A stretch of 64,000 bases of DNA from Alienimonas californiensis (lineage in GTDB: Bacteria; Planctomycetota; Planctomycetia; Planctomycetales; Planctomycetaceae), in the NCBI RefSeq assembly GCF_007743815.1, contig NZ_CP036265.1, positions 5,339,823-5,403,822 on the forward strand, given 5' to 3'. This document shows, in pieces, positions 12,107 through 23,408 of this stretch (within the stretch, counting starts at the first letter, position 1; each line of letters begins with the position of its first letter). Below the pieces are notes generated by a model. That model made no database searches and was not told where the DNA came from. It worked only from the letters and a program-made list of their open reading frames with translations. A program made the position numbers and the translations under genes.

Positions 12107-14065
12107 ATGAGCGTGCCCGCCGACCCCGCGAACGCCGCCGAACCCGCCGGTTCCAGCGATCACCGGTTTCAGGTCGACCTGCGGGGCGTGATCGAACTGC
12201 TCAGCGAGCACCTGTACTCCGGCCCGCGGGTCGTCGTGCGGGAACTGCTCCAGAACGGCGTGGACGCCCTCACCGCCCGCACGGCGAAGGACGAAGGCTT
12301 CGACCTGTCCGACGGCCGGGTGACGTTGGAACTGCTGCCCGGCCGCACGACGGAGGACGGCACGCAGCATCCGCCGACCCTCAGCGTGCGGGATAACGGC
12401 GTCGGCCTGACCGAGCCGGAGGTGCACGAGTTCCTCGCCAAGATCGGCCGCAGCGCCAAGCGCGGCGACCTGCAGGAAGACAGCTTCATCGGCCGGTTCG
12501 GCATCGGACTGCTGGCGGGGTTCCTGGTGGCGGAGGAGATCGTCGCCGTCACCCGCAGCGTGATGCCGGGGTCGCAGCCGGTCGAGTGGCGCGGCCGGGC
12601 GGACGGCACCTACACCGTCCGCACGCTGAACGTCGACCTCGCCCCCGGCACGCAGGTGTTCCTGCGGGCCCGGGAGGATCGGCTGGAGCACTTCGAGCCG
12701 GAAGTCGTGAAGAAGCGGGCCGCCTCCTACGGCTCCCTGCTACCCTTCCCGGTCACCTTCAAGCACGGGGCCGCGGACGAACTGCTGAACGAAACCCCGC
12801 CCTGGGAACGCTTCCCCACGGACTCCCCCGCCGACCGCGAGGGCCTGTTGGAATGGGCTGAGGGGGCGCTGGGCAAGTCGTTCCTCGACGCCTTCCCGGT
12901 GAAGTCCGACGCCGGCAAGGTTCGCGGAGTGGCGCTGGTGCGGCCGGAATCGACCGTCCGCAGCCGGACCGGCGATCATCGGGTCTATCTGAAGCGGATG
13001 TTGCTCTCGGAGAAGGCGGACGGCCTGCTGCCGGACTGGGCCTTCTTCGTGACCTGCGTGCTGAACGCCGACGGCCTGCACCCCACCGCCAGCCGGGAGG
13101 AACTGCGGGACGACGAGGACCTCGCCGCCGCCCGGGAGGAACTGGGCATGAGCCTGCGGCGCACGCTGCTGCGGTGGGCCGCCAAGGACCGCGACCGCCT
13201 GCACCGGCTGATCGACGTGCACTACCGGGCCGTCAAACGGCTGGCCGTGGAGGACGAGGAGTTCCGCAAGCTCGCCGCCGACTGGCTGCCCTTCGAGACC
13301 ACCGCCGGCCGGCTGCGGTTGGAGGAGATCCGCAAACGCTCCGACGACCGGCTGCGGTTCGCCGCGACGATGGACCAGTTCCGCCAACTCGCTCCGGTGG
13401 CGAGCGCCCAAGGGATGGTCGTCATTAACGCCTGCTACACGGACGAGCAGGAACTGCTCGAATCCCTGCCGGACACGCTGCCGGTGACGACGGAGAAGGT
13501 GACCGCGGCGGACCTGTCGGAGGAGTTCAGCGAACTGGACGACGACGCCTGGGACGCCGCCGCCGACCTGCTGAACGTCGCCGCGGACGCCCTCGCCCCC
13601 CTGGACTGCACGCCGGACGTGCGGCGGTTCGATCCGCAAACGCTGCCGGCGCTGTACGCGATCGGGGCGGAGGCCCAATTCCTCCGCGACGTTGAGCGGT
13701 CCAAGGAACAGGCCGATGACTTGTGGGGCAGCGTGCTGGACGACATGGCCGCGGGCCGGCCGCAGGTGGACGGCCCGCGGCTGTGCCTGAACTGGGCGCA
13801 CCCGCTGGTGCGGAACCTCGCCGCCACCGCCGCCACGCCGGACGAAAAAGGCGGCGCCGTGGCCCGCGGCACGGTGCGGACGGCGGTGGAACTGCTGTAC
13901 GTCCAGAGCCTGATGCTCGGGCACTACCCGCTGGGCGAGGCGGAGTTCGAACTGTTTGGCGACAGCCTGCTGGGCCTGATCGCCGCCGCCGTCGAGGGCC
14001 GCGGCGTCGGCGGGAACGGCCCAGGCGCCGGGAGTTCCAGCGACCGCGGGGGGGCCGATGGCTGA
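12107..14065 (+). CDS. HSP90/HtpG-family chaperone
   Basis: 652 residues from the ATG at 12107. The GHKL ATPase is intact: helix ELLQNGVDAL (46-55, with the catalytic Glu and Mg-binding Asn), VRDNGVGLT (ATP-binding Asp 96) and GRFGIGLLAGF (129-139). The middle domain carries YLKRMLLSEKADGLLPDW (near 294) and LHPTASREELRDD (near 325), matching HtpG YVKRVF... and NVSREMLQ including the conserved Arg. LNWAHPLVRNLA near the C-terminus matches the dimerisation region. It ends in a short Ser/Gly/Asp tail with no MEEVD peptide. It differs from standard HtpG in the lid and N-box wording (QNGVDAL for SNASDAL). It overlaps the next gene by 8 nt and heads an operon with four related helical proteins. 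It is a specialised paralogue rather than a housekeeping HtpG, by context. Confidence 0.88.
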   Translation: MSVPADPANAAEPAGSSDHRFQVDLRGVIELLSEHLYSGPRVVVRELLQNGVDALTARTAKDEGFDLSDGRVTLELLPGRTTEDGTQHPPTLSVRDNGVGLTEPEVHEFLAKIGRSAKRGDLQEDSFIGRFGIGLLAGFLVAEEIVAVTRSVMPGSQPVEWRGRADGTYTVRTLNVDLAPGTQVFLRAREDRLEHFEPEVVKKRAASYGSLLPFPVTFKHGAADELLNETPPWERFPTDSPADREGLLEWAEGALGKSFLDAFPVKSDAGKVRGVALVRPESTVRSRTGDHRVYLKRMLLSEKADGLLPDWAFFVTCVLNADGLHPTASREELRDDEDLAAAREELGMSLRRTLLRWAAKDRDRLHRLIDVHYRAVKRLAVEDEEFRKLAADWLPFETTAGRLRLEEIRKRSDDRLRFAATMDQFRQLAPVASAQGMVVINACYTDEQELLESLPDTLPVTTEKVTAADLSEEFSELDDDAWDAAADLLNVAADALAPLDCTPDVRRFDPQTLPALYAIGAEAQFLRDVERSKEQADDLWGSVLDDMAAGRPQVDGPRLCLNWAHPLVRNLAATAATPDEKGGAVARGTVRTAVELLYVQSLMLGHYPLGEAEFELFGDSLLGLIAAAVEGRGVGGNGPGAGSSSDRGGADG

Positions 14066-15308
14066 ATCGGACGCCGACGCCGGCAGCCCGCTCGATCCGT
14101 TCTTCAGCGAACTGTTCGAGCTGGAGGTGATGCCGCCCGGCGCCGCGAAGGTCGCGGCCTTGGCGGACCTGGCCCGCCGCACCGAGGCGGCCGGAAACCC
14201 GGGCCGTCTGCGTCGCGCCCGCTGGGCGCTGCTGATCGCTGCCGCCGGCACGGAGTTGGGCGACGACCGCGTGCTGCCCACCTTCGCGGCCCTACTGGCG
14301 GACTTCGACGCCGACCCCGACGCCGCCGCCGCGAACGGCTCCCCGCCCGACCGGCTCCTCACCGCCTACGCCGAGGTCCTGCGGTACACCACCCGCTACC
14401 CCTCCATCCCCCGGGAGCGGGTCGAGGCGCTGCTGGACGACTTCGCCCGCCGGGTCGAGGCGCTAGGCGGGGACGAGGCGGACATGTACGAGACCCGCCT
14501 GCACGCCCGCGGCACGCTGGGCGATCTGGAGGCGGTGCCGGCCCTGTGCGTGGCGATGAAGCGGGCCCGGGCCGCCGCCGATCTGCCGCCGTCGTGGGAC
14601 GGCGAGGCCCTCGCCGGTATCTACACCGCCCAGCCGGAACGGGCGCTGGCGGCGATGCGGCCGGTGATCGCCAACCGCGTTCCGGGGGCGTGGATGTGGC
14701 GGAGTTCCTTCCTCGAATGGTCCCTGCGGCCGCTGATCTGGGCGGGGGCGGAGGAGGAAGCCGACCGCAACTTCGCCGAGGCCGACGCCCGCTCCGGCTC
14801 CTGGTTGTTCGGGGACATCCTGCTGACCGAATACGCCTCCCGCCGCCTCGCCCGCACGCCGGAGCGGATGACCGACGAAGACGTCCGCCGGCTGCGGACC
14901 CGCGTCCGTCGGCTGCTGCGGACGGCGCCCGGCATGGGGCCGAGCTTCCGCGGGCAGGCCTATCAGGCCTGCGGCTTCGCCTGCGAGGCCCTCGCCGCCG
15001 CCGACCGCGACGCCCCCGCCCCGCTGCTCTTGCCGGGGGAGGAACTGTCGGAGAACCCCTCGCCGCGGCGGCCCTCCGAGGTCGTCGCCCCGCTGCTCGC
15101 CGAAGCGGACCGGCTGGACGAAGCCTTCGCGGCCCGCAACGGCAACGCCTACCTGGCGGTGGAGACGGCGGGGAACCGGGCGTTCGTCTTCGGCCCCGGC
15201 AGCGGCGTAGACCGCGTGCCGACGCCGCGGCGGGACCGCCTGAGGGACCTGTGGGAAGAGGTCGAGGCCTCCGGCGATCCGCTCCCGCGGCCGGGTCACG
15301 GCGGATGA
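14058..15308 (+). CDS. HSP90-operon helical protein 1 (RNGN family)
   Basis: 416 residues whose ATG overlaps the chaperone stop by 8 nt, so translation is probably coupled. It is all-helical, Ala/Leu/Arg-rich, and reads like a TPR/alpha-solenoid scaffold. It shares with the following three genes a mid-protein helix (YPSIPRERVEALLDDFARRV, from about residue 114) and the C-terminal signature LDEAFAARNGNAY with RNGN at 360-363. It lacks the CxxC pair of its siblings and carries a longer C-terminal tail. It has no signal peptide or membrane segment, so it is cytosolic like the chaperone. By analogy with TPR co-chaperones it could be an adaptor or client loader, but this is inference; no named family was recognised. 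Confidence 0.8.
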   Translation: MAESDADAGSPLDPFFSELFELEVMPPGAAKVAALADLARRTEAAGNPGRLRRARWALLIAAAGTELGDDRVLPTFAALLADFDADPDAAAANGSPPDRLLTAYAEVLRYTTRYPSIPRERVEALLDDFARRVEALGGDEADMYETRLHARGTLGDLEAVPALCVAMKRARAAADLPPSWDGEALAGIYTAQPERALAAMRPVIANRVPGAWMWRSSFLEWSLRPLIWAGAEEEADRNFAEADARSGSWLFGDILLTEYASRRLARTPERMTDEDVRRLRTRVRRLLRTAPGMGPSFRGQAYQACGFACEALAAADRDAPAPLLLPGEELSENPSPRRPSEVVAPLLAEADRLDEAFAARNGNAYLAVETAGNRAFVFGPGSGVDRVPTPRRDRLRDLWEEVEASGDPLPRPGHGG

Positions 15309-16453
15309 CGGACGACCTGAACCAAGCGCTGGAGGACGCCGCCGACCGGCCCTACGACGCCCGCCGCGTGGACGCGTTCGCGGAACTGGCCCGGCAGGCG
15401 GACGCGGAGGGGTCCGCCGAAGCCGCGTTCAACGCCCGGTTGGGGCTGCTCGACGCCGCGGTGATGACGAACCGGTTCGACGTGGCCCTCGCCGCCTTCC
15501 CCCGCCTGCTGGCCGACGTCGACGCCGAACCCGGCCGCTTCGCCCTGGAGGACCAACTGTTGTTGGCCTTCCCCATGCTGCTGGGCGGGGCGACGAGCTT
15601 CCCGGAGATCCCGCGGAGCCGGCTGCGCGAGCTGGGCGAGGACTACGCCGGCCGGGCCGCCGCCGCGGGGCGGCACGCCTCGGAGATCGCCGGCGGGCTG
15701 TTCCGGCTGGCCGCCGCGACCGGCGACTTGGACCGGGCCGCGGAGTTACTGCGGCAGATGTCCGATCCATGGGGCGGGCACTTCGCCGAGTGCCCGCACT
15801 GCCGCCTGCGGCACGAACTGATGCTCCCCTGGTGCGCCGACGATCAGCCCGCCGTGCTGCGGCTCGTCCGCCGGCTGATCGACGACGATCTGCACTGCAC
15901 CCGCTTCGAATTCTGCGGCCCGCGGGAGGCGCTGATCCTCCGCCCCCTTGCCCTGCGGGACGCCTTACCGGAGGCCGTGCGGCGGTATCGGGCGGCGGCG
16001 TCCGGCATTCGGTCCGGCCCGTTCTGGGTCGTGATGCCGGGGCTGCACGTGGGATTCCTCGCTCATCTGATTCGCCGCGGCGGAACCTCGGACCTGAGCG
16101 TCGCCGACGCCGCGGACGCCCTCCGCCGTCTGCTGATCCGCTGTGCGGCGCTGTCCGAGGGCGTCAGCCCGGACAACCGCATGGAACTGCTGACCGCGGC
16201 GGCGCCGGCCGTCGCGGCGCTGGCGGAACTCGACGCCGTCCCCGCCCTGCGACTGCCGGCCGGCGATTCCCTCGCCCCGCTGGCCGGCCGCGCGGGACAG
16301 GCGGCCCCGGACGCCTTGGCGGCGGCGATGAACGCGGAGGCGGAGGCCCTCGCCGTCGCCTTCGACCGCCGCAACGGCAACGACTTTCACCTCCGCCACC
16401 ACCGCCGTCACCGGGCGTTCGCCCTGGGTCGAACCGACCCGGACGGCGCCTGA
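15305..16453 (+). CDS. HSP90-operon helical protein 2 (RNGN family)
   Basis: 382 residues; its ATG overlaps the previous stop as ATGA. It is a cytosolic, helix-rich protein with the same architecture as its neighbours: FPEIPRSRLRELGEDYAGR helix (from about 99), FAECPHCRLRHE with Cys163 and Cys166, and the terminal signature ALAVAFDRRNGND (RNGN at 356-359) followed by a His/Arg-rich stretch FHLRHHRRHRAFAL. It is more divergent from the two downstream copies than they are from each other. Function unknown; membership of the chaperone operon is firm from overlap and strand. Confidence 0.8.
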   Translation: MTDDLNQALEDAADRPYDARRVDAFAELARQADAEGSAEAAFNARLGLLDAAVMTNRFDVALAAFPRLLADVDAEPGRFALEDQLLLAFPMLLGGATSFPEIPRSRLRELGEDYAGRAAAAGRHASEIAGGLFRLAAATGDLDRAAELLRQMSDPWGGHFAECPHCRLRHELMLPWCADDQPAVLRLVRRLIDDDLHCTRFEFCGPREALILRPLALRDALPEAVRRYRAAASGIRSGPFWVVMPGLHVGFLAHLIRRGGTSDLSVADAADALRRLLIRCAALSEGVSPDNRMELLTAAAPAVAALAELDAVPALRLPAGDSLAPLAGRAGQAAPDALAAAMNAEAEALAVAFDRRNGNDFHLRHHRRHRAFALGRTDPDGA

Positions 16454-16486
16454 ACCCAGCCCGCCCGCCCCTTCGAGAAGCCCGCC

Positions 16487-17602
16487 ATGACCGATCCTGA
16501 CGATCTGCCCCCCGAGGTGTTCGAGGCGGCGGAACTCGCTTATTTCGCGCCGGAGGGGCCGACGAAGGTGGCCCTGTGGGAGGCCGCCGTCGCCCGGGCC
16601 GACGCCGCCCGGCTGCCGGCGGAGGTCCGGATGGGCTTCCGGGCCGAGTTGGTCGAGGCGGCGGCCTCCGACGGCGTGAAGCAGTACGACCGGGCCTTCG
16701 GTCCCTGGGCGACGCTGCTGGCCGAGGCCGACCGCGATCCGGAGGCGGACTGGGTCGATTGGTTCGATCTGCTGTGGAAGTACAAGTGGCTCAGCGATTC
16801 GACCGGCGAGTACGCAGCGATCCCGCGGGCGAGGATCCTCGCGGTGCTGGACGACTTCGCGGCCCGGGCGGCGGCGCACGGGTTCAGCGCCCGGCCGGCG
16901 GAGAACTACCGCGCGAACAATCTCTGGCTGATGGGCGACTCGGACGCCGCCGCCGAGGCGATGCGGCGATTCGAAGCCGCGGACCGCGACGACCTGAGCG
17001 ACTGCCACGCGTGCGAGACGGCCCGGGCGGTGCAGTTCGCGGTGCACGTCGGCGACGACGCCGGCGCCGTGAGACGATTCCAACCCCTCGCCGCCGGCCG
17101 GATGGCCTGTGCGGAGGAGCCGGAGAACACGCATGGCGTGCTGCTCGCCCCGCTGGTCCGGCTCGGCCGGCATGAGGAGGCCGCGGAGCGGAATCGCATC
17201 GGTTTGGAGGGACTACGGCGCTTCCCGCATTTCGTGGCCCGGGCGGCGGAACACCTCGACTACCTCACCCGCACCGGCGATCTGACGACCGGCGCCCGAG
17301 TGTTTCGGCGGTTCACCAGAGCCGTCCCGGCGGTCTCCGATCACGACCGCTGGCGGTTCCTCGGGGCGGCGGAGACCTTTCTGGAAGCGGTCGCGGCCAA
17401 GTCGGACCGGCCGAAACGCTTCGCGCTGCCGGACGGCTTCCCCGTGCCGGACGCCGGGGGCCCGGTGAAGCCGTCCGAGCTCGTCCCGCAGTTCAAGGCG
17501 GCCGCGGACGCGATCGAGGCCCGGTTCAACGCCCGCAACGGCAACGACGTCTTCACCCGCCGCCGGGCGGAGGCGCGGGCCTTCGCCGAAGGCGCCGGGT
17601 AA
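16487..17602 (+). CDS. HSP90-operon helical protein 3 (RNGN family)
   Basis: 371 residues, starting 33 bases after the preceding gene. It is strongly similar along its length to the next gene: both share LLWKYKWLSD, ARPAENYRAN/LRPAENYRAN, LSDCHACE/LSDCQACE (Cys173, Cys176 here), CAEEPE-TH, and SDRPKRFALPDGFPVP/SDRPRRFRLPSDFPVP before the terminal IEARFNARNGNDVFTRRR (RNGN 350-353). Helical repeats of about 35-40 residues suggest a TPR-like solenoid. It is cytosolic. The role is unknown; it probably arose by tandem duplication with the next gene. Confidence 0.82.
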   Translation: MTDPDDLPPEVFEAAELAYFAPEGPTKVALWEAAVARADAARLPAEVRMGFRAELVEAAASDGVKQYDRAFGPWATLLAEADRDPEADWVDWFDLLWKYKWLSDSTGEYAAIPRARILAVLDDFAARAAAHGFSARPAENYRANNLWLMGDSDAAAEAMRRFEAADRDDLSDCHACETARAVQFAVHVGDDAGAVRRFQPLAAGRMACAEEPENTHGVLLAPLVRLGRHEEAAERNRIGLEGLRRFPHFVARAAEHLDYLTRTGDLTTGARVFRRFTRAVPAVSDHDRWRFLGAAETFLEAVAAKSDRPKRFALPDGFPVPDAGGPVKPSELVPQFKAAADAIEARFNARNGNDVFTRRRAEARAFAEGAG

Positions 17603-17679
17603 CCTGCAATCGACCCGCGGGTCGAACCGATCCGGCTCCGTCCGGGTCGGTCGATCGTTCCCCGTGCCCCCGCGTTGCG

Positions 17680-18783
17680 ATGTCCGACGGCCTGCCCCCC
17701 GAGGTGGCGATCCCGCTGGAACTGGCGACCTCCGCCCCGCACGGGCCGGCGGCGGTGGCGCTGTGGGAGACCGTCGTCCAGGCCGCCGACGCCGCCGGGC
17801 TGCCGGTCGGCCTGCGGATGGACTTCCGGCTCGAACTGGTCCGCGAGGCGGCGATGCACGCCAAACTCTACGACCGGGCGCTGGGGCCGTTCGCCGTCGT
17901 GCTGGCCGAGGCCGACCGCGACCCGGAGGCCCGCTGGATCTTCTGGCCGGGGCTGCTGTGGAAGTACAAGTGGCTCTCAGACGCGCTGGCGAGCTTCGTC
18001 GCCTTCCCGCGGGAGCGCGTGCTGTCCGTGCTGGACGACTTCGCCGCCCGCTGCGTCGCCCACGGGTTCAGCCTCCGGCCGGCGGAGAACTACCGGGCGA
18101 ACGCCCTGTGGCTGCTGGGCGAGGAGGACGCCGCCCGGGACGCCTTCGCCCGCTTCGAGGCCGCCCCGCGGGACCCGCTGAGCGACTGCCAGGCCTGCGA
18201 GGCCAGCCAGTCCGTCACCCACGCCGTGCGGTTGGGCGACGACGCCGGCGCCGTGGAGCGGGCCGCTCCGCTGCTGGGCGGGCGCCTGAGTTGTGCCGAG
18301 GAGCCGGAACGCACCCACAGCAAAGTCCTCGCCCCCCTGCTCCGCCTGGGCCGGGAGACGGAGGCCGCGGAGCAGCACCGCCTCGGGCTGGCCGCCCTCC
18401 GCCGGTTCCCGGCCTTCACGTTCTGCGCCTCCCGGCACTTCCTCTACCTCGCCCGGCGGGGGGAGACGGAGGAGGTGGGCGGCCTGCTGCAACGCACCGC
18501 CGGGCCGGTCGGCGCCACCTCGGACGATAACCGCCGCGAGTACCTCGCCGCCGCCGGCGTGGCCCTGAACGCTTTAGCAGATCACTCCGACCGCCCCCGC
18601 CGGTTTCGTCTGCCGAGTGACTTCCCGGTGCCGAACCCGGACGGCGTCGTACCGCCGTCCGAGCTGGCCGTGGCGTTTCGGCAGGCCGCAGACGAACTCG
18701 CTGCCCGGTTCGACGCCCGCAACGGCAACGACGCCGTCTCCCGCCGCCAGCAGGCCGAACGGGCCTTCGTTCGGCCAAGTTGA
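17680..18783 (+). CDS. HSP90-operon helical protein 4 (RNGN family)
   Basis: 367 residues, the last gene of the operon, 77 bases after its closest paralogue at 16487-17602. It shares with that gene LLWKYKWLSD, RPAENYRAN, LSDCQACE (Cys170, Cys173), CAEEPERTH, the DRPRRFRLPSDFPVPNPDG segment and the C-terminal LAARFDARNGNDAVSRR (RNGN at 347-350). It is cytosolic and helical. The ATG at 17680 is preferred to nearby starts because it aligns with the paralogue's MTDPDDLPPEV start (MSDGLPPEV). The operon ends at a hairpin overlapping the stop codon. Function unknown. Confidence 0.82.
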   Translation: MSDGLPPEVAIPLELATSAPHGPAAVALWETVVQAADAAGLPVGLRMDFRLELVREAAMHAKLYDRALGPFAVVLAEADRDPEARWIFWPGLLWKYKWLSDALASFVAFPRERVLSVLDDFAARCVAHGFSLRPAENYRANALWLLGEEDAARDAFARFEAAPRDPLSDCQACEASQSVTHAVRLGDDAGAVERAAPLLGGRLSCAEEPERTHSKVLAPLLRLGRETEAAEQHRLGLAALRRFPAFTFCASRHFLYLARRGETEEVGGLLQRTAGPVGATSDDNRREYLAAAGVALNALADHSDRPRRFRLPSDFPVPNPDGVVPPSELAVAFRQAADELAARFDARNGNDAVSRRQQAERAFVRPS

Positions 18784-21027: not shown

Positions 21028-21215
21028 GGGGAGGGGCGATCCCTGAACGTCCGGCGACCGATCCGGCGTCGGGGCGATCGGACAGCGGCGGGGACGGGGT
21101 CGATTCCACGTGGCAACGGCGATTGGCGCCGAACTTGCGTCCCGAATGATTCGCCCGTGAATCGGTCGCCGTGACCGCGGAATTGCCGCTCGATCCTCCC
21201 ACCCTGATTATTTCC

Positions 21216-21620
21216 ATGAAGGCTCTCATCGCATCCGCCGCCATTGCCGGCGCCGCCCTCCTTGGCTCCGCCGCTCCAGCCGACGCCGGCGGGGTGAGCA
21301 TCGGATACAGCTCCGGGGGCTACGGGTATAACTCCGGAGGCTACGGTTACAGCCCCTACAGCTACGGCGTCCGGCCGAGCTACGGCTATGGCATTCGTCC
21401 TTCCTACGGCGTCAGCCCCTCCTACGGTTACCGGAGCTACGGCTACCGCGGGTACAACCCGGGGTTCAGCAGCGGGTTGTACGGCGGCCGGGTTTACGGC
21501 AGCGGCCTCTACAACAGCGGTTACGGCTATAACCGTGGCTACGGCTATAACCGTGGGTTCTACAACCGCGGATATGGCAGCGGCTACGGCGGCAGCGGGT
21601 TCAGTCTGATTATTCGCTGA
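21216..21620 (+). CDS. small secreted Gly/Tyr-rich repeat protein
   Basis: 134 residues from the ATG at 21216, chosen because it begins a clean signal peptide (MKALIASAAIAGAALLGSAAPADA). The rest is almost entirely Gly, Tyr, Ser, Asn and Arg in short repeats of YGY, SGGYGY, RPSYG and YNRGYG. There are no Cys and no catalytic motif. The composition resembles glycine-tyrosine-rich structural or matrix proteins. It lies between a ROK kinase and the Cys-rich secreted protein on the same strand, with a terminator right after it, so it is probably a single-gene transcript. Function unknown. Confidence 0.75.
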   Translation: MKALIASAAIAGAALLGSAAPADAGGVSIGYSSGGYGYNSGGYGYSPYSYGVRPSYGYGIRPSYGVSPSYGYRSYGYRGYNPGFSSGLYGGRVYGSGLYNSGYGYNRGYGYNRGFYNRGYGSGYGGSGFSLIIR

Positions 21621-21854: not shown

Positions 21855-23408
21855 ATGAACGCCCTGAAACTCGCCGCCGTCGTCGCGATCGGCTTTGGCA
21901 CGGCCTCGCTGACGACCGCCGCCCCGCCCTCTTGCGGCGCCTGCCCGTCCAAGGCCAAACGGACCGTCCAGGTCGAGACGGCCGACGCCACGCTGACCGC
22001 GTCCGACCTCTTCGTCACGGTCGCCGCCTGCTCCGAAGGCTCCTGCCCCACCGCGGACTGCCCCGCGACCTGCACCGGCCCGGGCTCCGCCTGCTGCGCC
22101 GAGATGGGCTGCTGCAAGAAGACCGCCGCCTGCACCGGCGCCGCTTGCGAGAAGACCGCCGCCTGCACCGGCGCCGCTTGCGAGAAGACCGCCGCCTGCA
22201 CCGGCGCCGCCTGCGAGAAAACCGCCGCCTGCACCGGCGCCGCCTGCGAGAAAACCGCCGCCTGCACCGGCGCCGCCTGCGAGAAAACCGCCACCTGCGA
22301 CGCCCCGGCCCCGACCGCCTGTTCGCTGGCCACCTGCAGCGACGCCGTGCCCGCCACCGCCGTAGTCGTCTGCTCCGCCTCGTCCGAAGCCGCCCCGCCG
22401 GCCCCGAGTCGCACGTTCGCCTGTAGCGGGACCGCCTGCCCGATCACCGTCTGCGTTGCGACCGCCGACGCCTGCCCGACCGCCGCCTGCGGGACCTCGG
22501 CCTGCACGACCGCCGCCTGCACGAAGACCGCGTGCGAAACCGCCGCCTGCTCCGCCGGGTCTTGCGAGATCGCCGCTTGCGGCACGAACGCCTGCGGCTT
22601 GCGGGGGGTGATCGCCAAGCAGTTCACCACCATCGTGACCAGCGCCGCCAACGACCTGTCCTCCTGCGCCGCCGAGTGCGCCCTCGCCTGCGGCACGGCG
22701 TGCCGCGGCGCCGCCTGCGACGGCGGCCCCTGTCCGAGCGGCGTGTGCAGCGAGATCGCCTGCGAGACCAGCCCCTGTAAGTCCGCGCCGGCCTGCACCT
22801 CGACCGACGACTGCCCCGGCTGGGTCTCCGCCCCGGCGCTCGCCGCCCCCTCGCACGCGATCCCCTACCCGATCGCCTACGAACCGGCCGGACTTTACGG
22901 CGTGCAGCGGACTGCCGCCGTCGACGCCACGTCGTTCGGCTACGCCGCCCCGGCCGCCTACGCCGTGCCGGTCGAGACGAACTCCGCCCTGCCGGTCGGC
23001 CGCTGGACCCGCACCCTGAACGACCAGTCCGTCACGATCGCCGTGAGCCCCAACGGCTCTTTCACCGCGACCTGCACCGTGCCGAACGCCGGCTGCTCCC
23101 TGAGCGTCTCCGGCGACTGCCGGGCCACCGAGGACGGCCTGCTGTTCGGCGTCGTCACCTCCGCGAAGGTCTGCCCCGGCTCCGGCAGCCACGACGGCTC
23201 CGTCGATCCGGTCTCCTGCGTGGAAGTCGAAGGCTTCTGCCGGGCCCTGATCGATCAGCCCTTCAGCGCCCGCTGCCGGGTGAAGGACCAGTCCATGACC
23301 GTCTCGCACGCCCTGTTCGGCGGCATCGGCTTCATTGGCACCCCCGGCCCCGGCGAACCGGCTCACCTCGCCCTGACGATGTTCAGCGGCGCCTACCAGG
23401 CCGAGTGA
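21855..23408 (+). CDS. secreted Cys-rich repeat protein
   Basis: 517 residues; the ATG follows a strong ribosome site AAGGAAGAG at 21839-21847. A signal peptide (MNALKLAAVVAIGFGTASLTTAA) leads into a Cys- and Ala-rich region. Residues 90-144 are five near-identical 11-residue units of the form TAACTGAACEK, and looser TAACxTACxxxAC repeats continue to about residue 310, with Cys every 3-8 positions. From about residue 370 the protein changes to a compact domain (GRWTRTLNDQSVTIAVSPNGSF, then SGDCRATEDGLLFGVV) with paired Cys, resembling an exported beta-barrel or lipocalin-like fold. A disulfide-rich or metal-binding envelope protein is likely. It ends 32 bases before a strong hairpin. Confidence 0.82.
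   Translation: MNALKLAAVVAIGFGTASLTTAAPPSCGACPSKAKRTVQVETADATLTASDLFVTVAACSEGSCPTADCPATCTGPGSACCAEMGCCKKTAACTGAACEKTAACTGAACEKTAACTGAACEKTAACTGAACEKTAACTGAACEKTATCDAPAPTACSLATCSDAVPATAVVVCSASSEAAPPAPSRTFACSGTACPITVCVATADACPTAACGTSACTTAACTKTACETAACSAGSCEIAACGTNACGLRGVIAKQFTTIVTSAANDLSSCAAECALACGTACRGAACDGGPCPSGVCSEIACETSPCKSAPACTSTDDCPGWVSAPALAAPSHAIPYPIAYEPAGLYGVQRTAAVDATSFGYAAPAAYAVPVETNSALPVGRWTRTLNDQSVTIAVSPNGSFTATCTVPNAGCSLSVSGDCRATEDGLLFGVVTSAKVCPGSGSHDGSVDPVSCVEVEGFCRALIDQPFSARCRVKDQSMTVSHALFGGIGFIGTPGPGEPAHLALTMFSGAYQAE
22122..22286 (+). repeat. five tandem 33-bp coding repeats
   Basis: Five head-to-tail 33-bp units beginning ACCGCCGCCTGCACCGGCG at 22122, 22155, 22188, 22221 and 22254. 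They differ only at a few third positions (GCT/GCC, AAG/AAA) and encode the 11-residue Cys repeat. A degenerate sixth unit follows. The near-identity at DNA level suggests recent expansion and possible copy-number variation. Confidence 0.9.

Follow-up and report, generated by a model that had tools for sequence, protein, structure and literature searches.

An NF010683-type HSP90 and a family of predicted solenoid partner proteins coupled in Alienimonas and other bacteria

Eukaryotic HSP90 works with co-chaperones containing tetratricopeptide repeats (TPR), such as Hop/Sti1 and FKBP51/52, and in bacteria HtpG of Mycobacterium tuberculosis reportedly acts with DnaJ2, to judge from the title of a 2023 study (PMC10269695). 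In this study, a row of five genes (12107-18783) was analyzed in a 64,000-nucleotide stretch of Alienimonas californiensis DNA (contig NZ_CP036265.1, positions 5,339,823 to 5,403,822; hereafter the window), which encodes an HSP90 and four related helical proteins, termed partners 1 to 4. According to the portions of two papers used here, bacterial HTPG proteins form three groups, with the two copies of Streptomyces coelicolor in different groups (Chen et al. 2006, PMC1525184), and long-branch clades have been named hsp90B and hsp90C in an analysis that was confined to hsp90A, set the paralogue family aside and noted that no obligate Hsp90 co-chaperones had been identified in bacteria (Press et al. 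2013, PMC3708813). These portions describe no partner of the kind reported below.

The HSP90 of the window was found to belong to the NCBIfam family NF010683 ("HSP90 family protein", PRK14083 type), here called HtpG-C, and its coupling with the partner family across bacteria is well supported. The pair resembles the eukaryotic system in joining an HSP90 to a TPR-type solenoid (here a fold predicted for partners 1 and 3), but HtpG-C has no EEVD or EDVD tail, and the solenoid of the partner, long and irregular, goes unrecognized as TPR by Pfam in the window copies. Searches of open-licence literature yielded no description of the pair. It is probably a bacterial HSP90-solenoid pair independent of the eukaryotic one, with a partner family that has no name.

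HtpG-C and its coupling with the partner gene

The window HSP90 matched NF010683, a model that names HSP90 only, with 653.9 bits (cut-off 455), residues 17-631 aligning with positions 4-598 of the 604 in the model. The HtpG equivalog model (NF003555) aligned over residues 19-603 and gave only 149.2 bits against a cut-off of 371, and the protein fell outside the HtpG clade in a midpoint-rooted tree; an identity as HtpG was rejected. In this tree, 16 relatives of the window HSP90 formed one clade, of moderate support (0.72), separate from 21 other HSP90s. A second HSP90 of the same genome (4.396-4.398 Mb) scored 328.5 bits with the Pfam HSP90 model, compared with 25.6 bits for the window gene, and grouped with HtpG-like proteins. 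Bacterial HtpG (Hsp90A, Escherichia coli type) is of the same ATPase family but lies in a separate clade. Sequence comparison places the window HSP90 in an old family of bacterial paralogues distinct from HtpG. NF010683 probably corresponds to what Chen et al. (2006) called Group C HTPG and Press et al. (2013) called hsp90C, the equation with Group C being based on its presence in Streptomyces and on its length.

Alignment of the window HSP90 with those of the 80 loci described below (81 sequences) showed R45, E46, N50, D53, D96, G98, G100, F131, G132, G134 and R330 to be identical in all. By homology, we take E46 to be the catalytic glutamate, N50 the ATP/Mg asparagine and R330 the middle-domain catalytic arginine. 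The first-pass annotation had described an HSP90/HtpG ATPase with intact GHKL motifs; the ATPase residues are indeed intact throughout, but the chaperone is of the NF010683 type and not an HtpG equivalog. A cysteine, C501, was present in 79 of the 81 sequences; among the 21 other HSP90s aligned, 20 had another residue and one had a gap at this column, the placing of which is uncertain in the distant HSP90s of the tree alignment.

Approximately 85,000 species genomes were scanned with the HSP90 alignment, and the best 80 of 550 confirmed relatives were analyzed as loci. Each of these was scored against the window HSP90, reaching at least 384 bits, rather than singly against NF010683; relatives more distant than these may be less faithful to the pairing. 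Partners were sought with a profile built from 12 seeds and retrained once, the seeds being mostly HSP90-adjacent copies, so that far-diverged orphan partners could escape. A partner gene was detected at 75 of the 80 loci, the same count before and after retraining. It lay directly downstream on the HSP90 strand in 74 and downstream on the opposite strand at one (L088). With the start of the partner domain projected back to position 1 of the model, its distance from the HSP90 stop had a median of 11 nucleotides and was 60 nucleotides or less in 70 of the 74; domain distances were used because counts from start codons favour short gaps. By record titles, the 80 loci come from at least eight phyla; among them are members of Planctomycetota, Myxococcota, Acidobacteria, Bacillota, Bacteroidota, Actinomycetota, Desulfobacterales and Deinococcales, as well as a betaproteobacterium. 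The adjacency to HSP90, on which the first-pass annotation had let its proposal of a dedicated HSP90-plus-helical-partner module depend, is thus conserved well beyond this genome and, together with the solenoid folds predicted for partners 1 and 3, supports such a module.

No partner was found at five loci, L054 (166 nucleotides of downstream sequence), L070 (2 nucleotides), L078, L092 and L113; for four of them (L054, L078, L092 and L113), a whole-genome search located a partner elsewhere in the genome. Six further relatives exceeded the NF010683 cut-off, five of which (G001, G010, G031, G036 and G037) had a partner beside the HSP90, that of G010 with an internal stop, and the sixth (G030) had none nearby and one elsewhere on the same contig. 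Extra partner pieces in G010 (C183:42748-43793 and C201:67681-68729), split or with internal stops, appear as if they were decayed copies; they were located upstream of the HSP90 as well as on a different contig. One partner per HSP90 was the usual state, two being present at L098, L033, Listeria L050 and G638. At none of the 80 loci were HSP90 and partner fused into a single reading frame. A third operon gene was likewise rejected: with open reading frames (ORFs) overlapping the core excluded, the widest flank families occurred at only 5 loci (4 groups) and 6 loci (3 groups), and families found at up to 8 loci (among 15 listed) or at 10 loci (Streptomyces only) appear to reflect synteny confined to a single lineage. 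Among plasmid records, three from Streptomyces and one from Paenibacillus carried one partner each, and one Listeria record carried two. The Listeria "plasmid" NZ_LR134399.1 (with queG, trmL, fri and lplA1) and NZ_CP030101.1 (2.9 Mb) look chromosomal.

Co-occurrence was assessed in 691 genomes from three phyla, with HSP90 thresholds of our own choice (E 1e-120 for Planctomycetota, 1e-100 for the other two), a partner threshold of E 1e-5, and scoring limited in each genome to no more than the top 6 or 10 candidates of a first look. HSP90, partner and both were detected in 11, 10 and 10 of 294 Planctomycetota, in 7, 8 and 7 of 198 genomes of the phylum of Streptomyces scabiei, and in 3, 3 and 3 of 199 genomes of the phylum of Paenibacillus silagei. 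Pooled, 20 genomes had both genes, one had the HSP90 only, one the partner only and 669 neither (Fisher p approximately 2e-36, a value that ignores relatedness). This sample and the 80-locus set overlap, since L092 and G200, with identical matches, are probably one genome. The two genes were unlinked on one contig in G145 (about 8 kb and 376 kb apart) and G030, and on different contigs in G057, G200 and G315; because co-occurrence persists in such genomes, the coupling is not mere retained adjacency. As a control, G004, G005, G018, G028 and G033 had other HSP90 matches and no partner, indicating that an ordinary HSP90 does not imply one. In the phylum of Streptomyces, G359 and G497 each possessed two NF010683-type HSP90s and a matching number of partners, every partner adjoining one of the HSP90s. 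The pairing of NF010683-type HSP90 and partner is old.

The partner family

The four window partners are homologous. Their alignment, which covers most of each protein, has 49 invariant columns; pairwise identities are 28-32%, except for partners 3 and 4 (58%), and all four have the motif RNGN near the C-terminus. None of the four had an over-cut-off match in Pfam or NCBIfam. Across 52 family members, NCBIfam named no partner family and gave two single weak matches, and Pfam gave weak TPR matches, each model in at most four members. Pfam detected no effector domain, either in the window partners or among the 52 family members aligned, and no DNA-binding domain in the 52 at E ≤ 0.01.

Structure prediction with AlphaFold2 covered partners 1 and 3. 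Partner 3 was modelled as nearly all helix with a predicted local distance difference test (pLDDT) score of 96.4 and a predicted template modelling (pTM) score of 0.93, and partner 1 as a helical solenoid with a pLDDT of 88.7. In comparison with the Protein Data Bank, the partner 3 model matched APC subunit 5 (Z 21.3, 5.9 Å, 329 aligned residues), MalT domain III (Z 20.4, 5.3 Å, 320) and NprR (Z 18.3, 4.4 Å, 303), and that of partner 1 matched NprR (Z 18.7, 4.4 Å, 305) and APC subunit 5 (Z 17.5, 6.0 Å, 330); Foldseek alone returned three matches at E ≤ 0.001, to designed PPR proteins and LGN. On these models, partners 1 and 3 look like TPR-type solenoids, and partners 2 and 4 are expected to have the same fold because they are homologous to them. 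The matches support a fold type and not a function, since helical repeats match one another easily. Solenoids of the RRNPP/Rap/MalT kind are the closest solved bacterial folds; the likeness is in fold, with sequence identities of 5-13% and, as noted above, no DNA-binding domain in the partners. Four related helical proteins with a common C-terminal signature, as first described, are therefore borne out as paralogues at 28-58% identity, and the two that were folded share a predicted solenoid, whereas a lack of any common fold had been named as refuting the proposal.

Of 87 partner domains, 84 have three cysteines forming a C-x2-C...C triad (C173, C176 and C208 in partner 3 numbering), the exceptions being window partner 1, which has DPG at these columns, and two copies of Alienimonas chondri. 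R350 and N351 of the RNGN motif were identical in all 87. By residue number, the triad cysteines lie at or beside helix starts and loops of the partner 3 model, which makes a metal or thiol site plausible.

In Alienimonas, the partner has been multiplied. A profile search of the whole A. californiensis genome gave four partners in total. A. chondri, the closest named relative among the matches listed (HSP90 identity 88%), has six in tandem (C1-C6; L053:8886-15905), of which C2, C3, C5 and C6 are 85, 76, 81 and 72% identical to partners 1, 2, 3 and 4, respectively, C4 is 51% identical to partner 2, and C1 reaches 39% at most. Its triad-free copies, C1 and C2, come first in the array, next to the HSP90. 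Because A. chondri has six, the four copies of the window represent a changing state within the genus and not the definition of the module.

At actinomycete loci, the ORF containing the partner domain extends to at least 957 amino acids except where the locus itself ends sooner; in two such partners examined, the domain is followed by further TPR repeats. The partner profile detected no homology to the TPR portion of one Streptomyces partner, nor to TPR proteins adjoining other HSP90-like clades. Such proteins (774, 946, 872 and 340 amino acids) were observed directly downstream of HSP90-like genes below the NF010683 cut-off at L052, L045, L041 and L040, respectively, and none was directly downstream at L039, L042 and L043. 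The combination of an HSP90 with a TPR protein may be more widespread in bacteria. At L051, on a Pseudanabaena plasmid, an HSP90-like ATP-binding protein of 877 amino acids adjoins a TIR-domain protein near a DEAD/DEAH helicase, and a TPR protein is encoded two genes downstream.

Interpretation of the pair

We favour the reading, which we consider probable, that HtpG-C and an obligate solenoid partner constitute a bacterial HSP90 machine in which the partner serves as co-chaperone or adaptor. From the linkage and co-occurrence we infer that the machine would have two mutually dependent parts, an old HSP90 paralogue and a dedicated TPR-type solenoid that binds it, the latter recruiting particular client proteins or tuning the ATP-driven clamp. 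Docking would take place on an HSP90 surface other than the C-terminal tail, because these HSP90s have no EEVD-type tail. The C-x2-C...C site would most likely be a structural or regulatory metal site, or a redox or thiol one. In Alienimonas, a single ancestral partner would have been amplified in tandem and then diverged, one window copy losing the triad, so that several adaptors differing in their clients would share a single HSP90. A bolder version, which we regard as speculative and rather unlikely, is that the three cysteines form a metal- or thiol-based switch gating the chaperone, perhaps completed by C501 across the interface in most members, that the obligate co-chaperone family is ancient, and that the amplified triad-free copies are constitutive adaptors.

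Several observations weigh against a co-chaperone role. Neither EEVD nor EDVD, the two tails sought, was present at the end of any of the 81 HSP90s, so the eukaryotic mode of tail docking does not apply. The genome of L070 gave no partner in a whole-genome search; in G226 an HSP90 fragment cut by the contig start had no detectable partner, including in the 2.8 kb behind it; and G507 has a partner without an NF010683-type HSP90. The G507 partner carries RAGT instead of RNGT and adjoins an ORF on the opposite strand, which we take to be an IS110-type transposase, and this locus looks decayed. Solenoid matches such as those obtained here are frequent among helical repeats. The idea that C501 strictly accompanies the triad was rejected: the HSP90s of L077, L089 and Listeria L050 (the last outside the 81 sequences) lack it and their partners keep the triad, so that C501 is not needed for the triad. 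Finally, linkage and co-occurrence would suit a dedicated client equally well.

That last alternative is the strongest, and although we consider it distinctly less probable, it fits the genomic data almost as well. The partner would be a solenoid scaffold or sensor that needs its own HSP90 to fold or become active, with the output residing in the partner; steroid receptors depend on eukaryotic HSP90 in this manner. Several diverging partners accompany one HSP90 in Alienimonas, two accompany it at the loci mentioned above, and the nearest bacterial folds (MalT domain III, NprR and Rap) are ligand-sensing solenoids, all of which would suit a client. A client would, however, be expected to contain an effector part, which Pfam did not find, and mutual dependence over many phyla is presumably more usual for subunits of one machine; for these two reasons, an adaptor is favoured over a client.

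A conditional module against stress or phages that moves between genomes is an unlikely reading of the pair. Its presence is patchy (10-11 of 294, 7-8 of 198 and 3 of 199 genomes in the three phyla), and complete pairs occur on three Streptomyces plasmid records, as such a module would show. However, PADLOC gave no match to the partners at E ≤ 1 and one weak match to the HSP90, in which the ATPase part resembled TmtA; the list of flank families, which were counted but not annotated singly, showed no recurring defence family. Defence, one of the roles first suggested for the module, is therefore unsupported and disfavoured. Regarding heat stress, no CIRCE operator was found, either as an exact match in 172 loci or with up to three mismatches in the window, this being the only regulator sought. 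A coincidental operon, whose genes are neighbours by descent without functional coupling, is very improbable: a short-chain dehydrogenase gene adjoins the partner array in both Alienimonas species, so the wider locus was vertically inherited there, but the linkage extends across many phyla and the co-occurrence holds where the genes are unlinked.

That the partner is rarely absent, in record titles covering at least eight phyla, suggests a dedicated helper protein for some of the HSP90s of bacteria. Physical binding, client recruitment and client diversity are likewise inferred. Two questions become testable, namely whether bacteria have HSP90 co-chaperones and what the NF010683 paralogue does. 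If the reading is true, docking would be independent of the eukaryotic C-terminal tail, and bacteria would offer a natural series of one to six adaptors per HSP90.

Layout of the locus and neighbouring genes

The A. californiensis genome is a single contig of 5,475,215 bases. Its five genes of interest form an operon-like row, all starting with ATG, with junctions, in order, of an 8-nucleotide overlap, a 4-nucleotide overlap, a 33-nucleotide gap and a 77-nucleotide gap. The guanine-plus-cytosine (GC) fractions at codon positions 1, 2 and 3 are 0.74-0.80, 0.47-0.56 and 0.90-0.93 in all five, a pattern by which the ORFs look like coding DNA of a window with 72% GC. The row of rightward genes with short overlaps and gaps described initially was confirmed by these data and the coordinates below.

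Table 1. Genes and sequence features of the HSP90-partner locus (window positions)
Feature	Position	Strand	Evidence
HSP90 family protein HtpG-C, 652 amino acids	12107..14065	+	NCBIfam NF010683, 653.9 bits, cut-off 455
GHKL motif of HSP90, residues E46 to N50	12242..12256	+	both residues identical in 81/81 relatives
GHKL glycine-rich stretch of HSP90, residues 129-136	12491..12514	+	G132, G134 identical in 81/81
R330 of HSP90 middle domain	13094..13096	+	R in 81/81
C501 of HSP90, family-typical cysteine	13607..13609	+	C in 79/81
Partner 1, 416 amino acids, predicted TPR-like solenoid, without cysteine triad	14058..15308	+	family alignment; model pLDDT 88.7; triad columns DPG
RNGN signature of partner 1	15135..15146	+	R and N identical in 87/87 partner domains
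Partner 2, 382 amino acids, triad cysteines 163, 166, 198	15305..16453	+	family alignment
RNGN signature of partner 2	16370..16381	+	sequence and family alignment
Partner 3, 371 amino acids, predicted TPR-like solenoid	16487..17602	+	pLDDT 96.4, pTM 0.93; profile E 5.3e-117, top of four
CxxC of partner 3 (C173, C176)	17003..17014	+	triad CCC in 84/87 partner domains
Third triad cysteine of partner 3 (C208)	17108..17110	+	family alignment
RNGN signature of partner 3	17534..17545	+	family alignment
Partner 4, 367 amino acids, triad cysteines 170, 173, 205	17680..18783	+	58% identity to partner 3
RNGN signature of partner 4	18718..18729	+	sequence and family alignment

Elsewhere in the window, a small Gly/Tyr-rich ORF was noted at 21171-21620, and a cysteine-rich ORF of 517 amino acids with a repeated TAACTGAACEK-like unit at 21855-23408.

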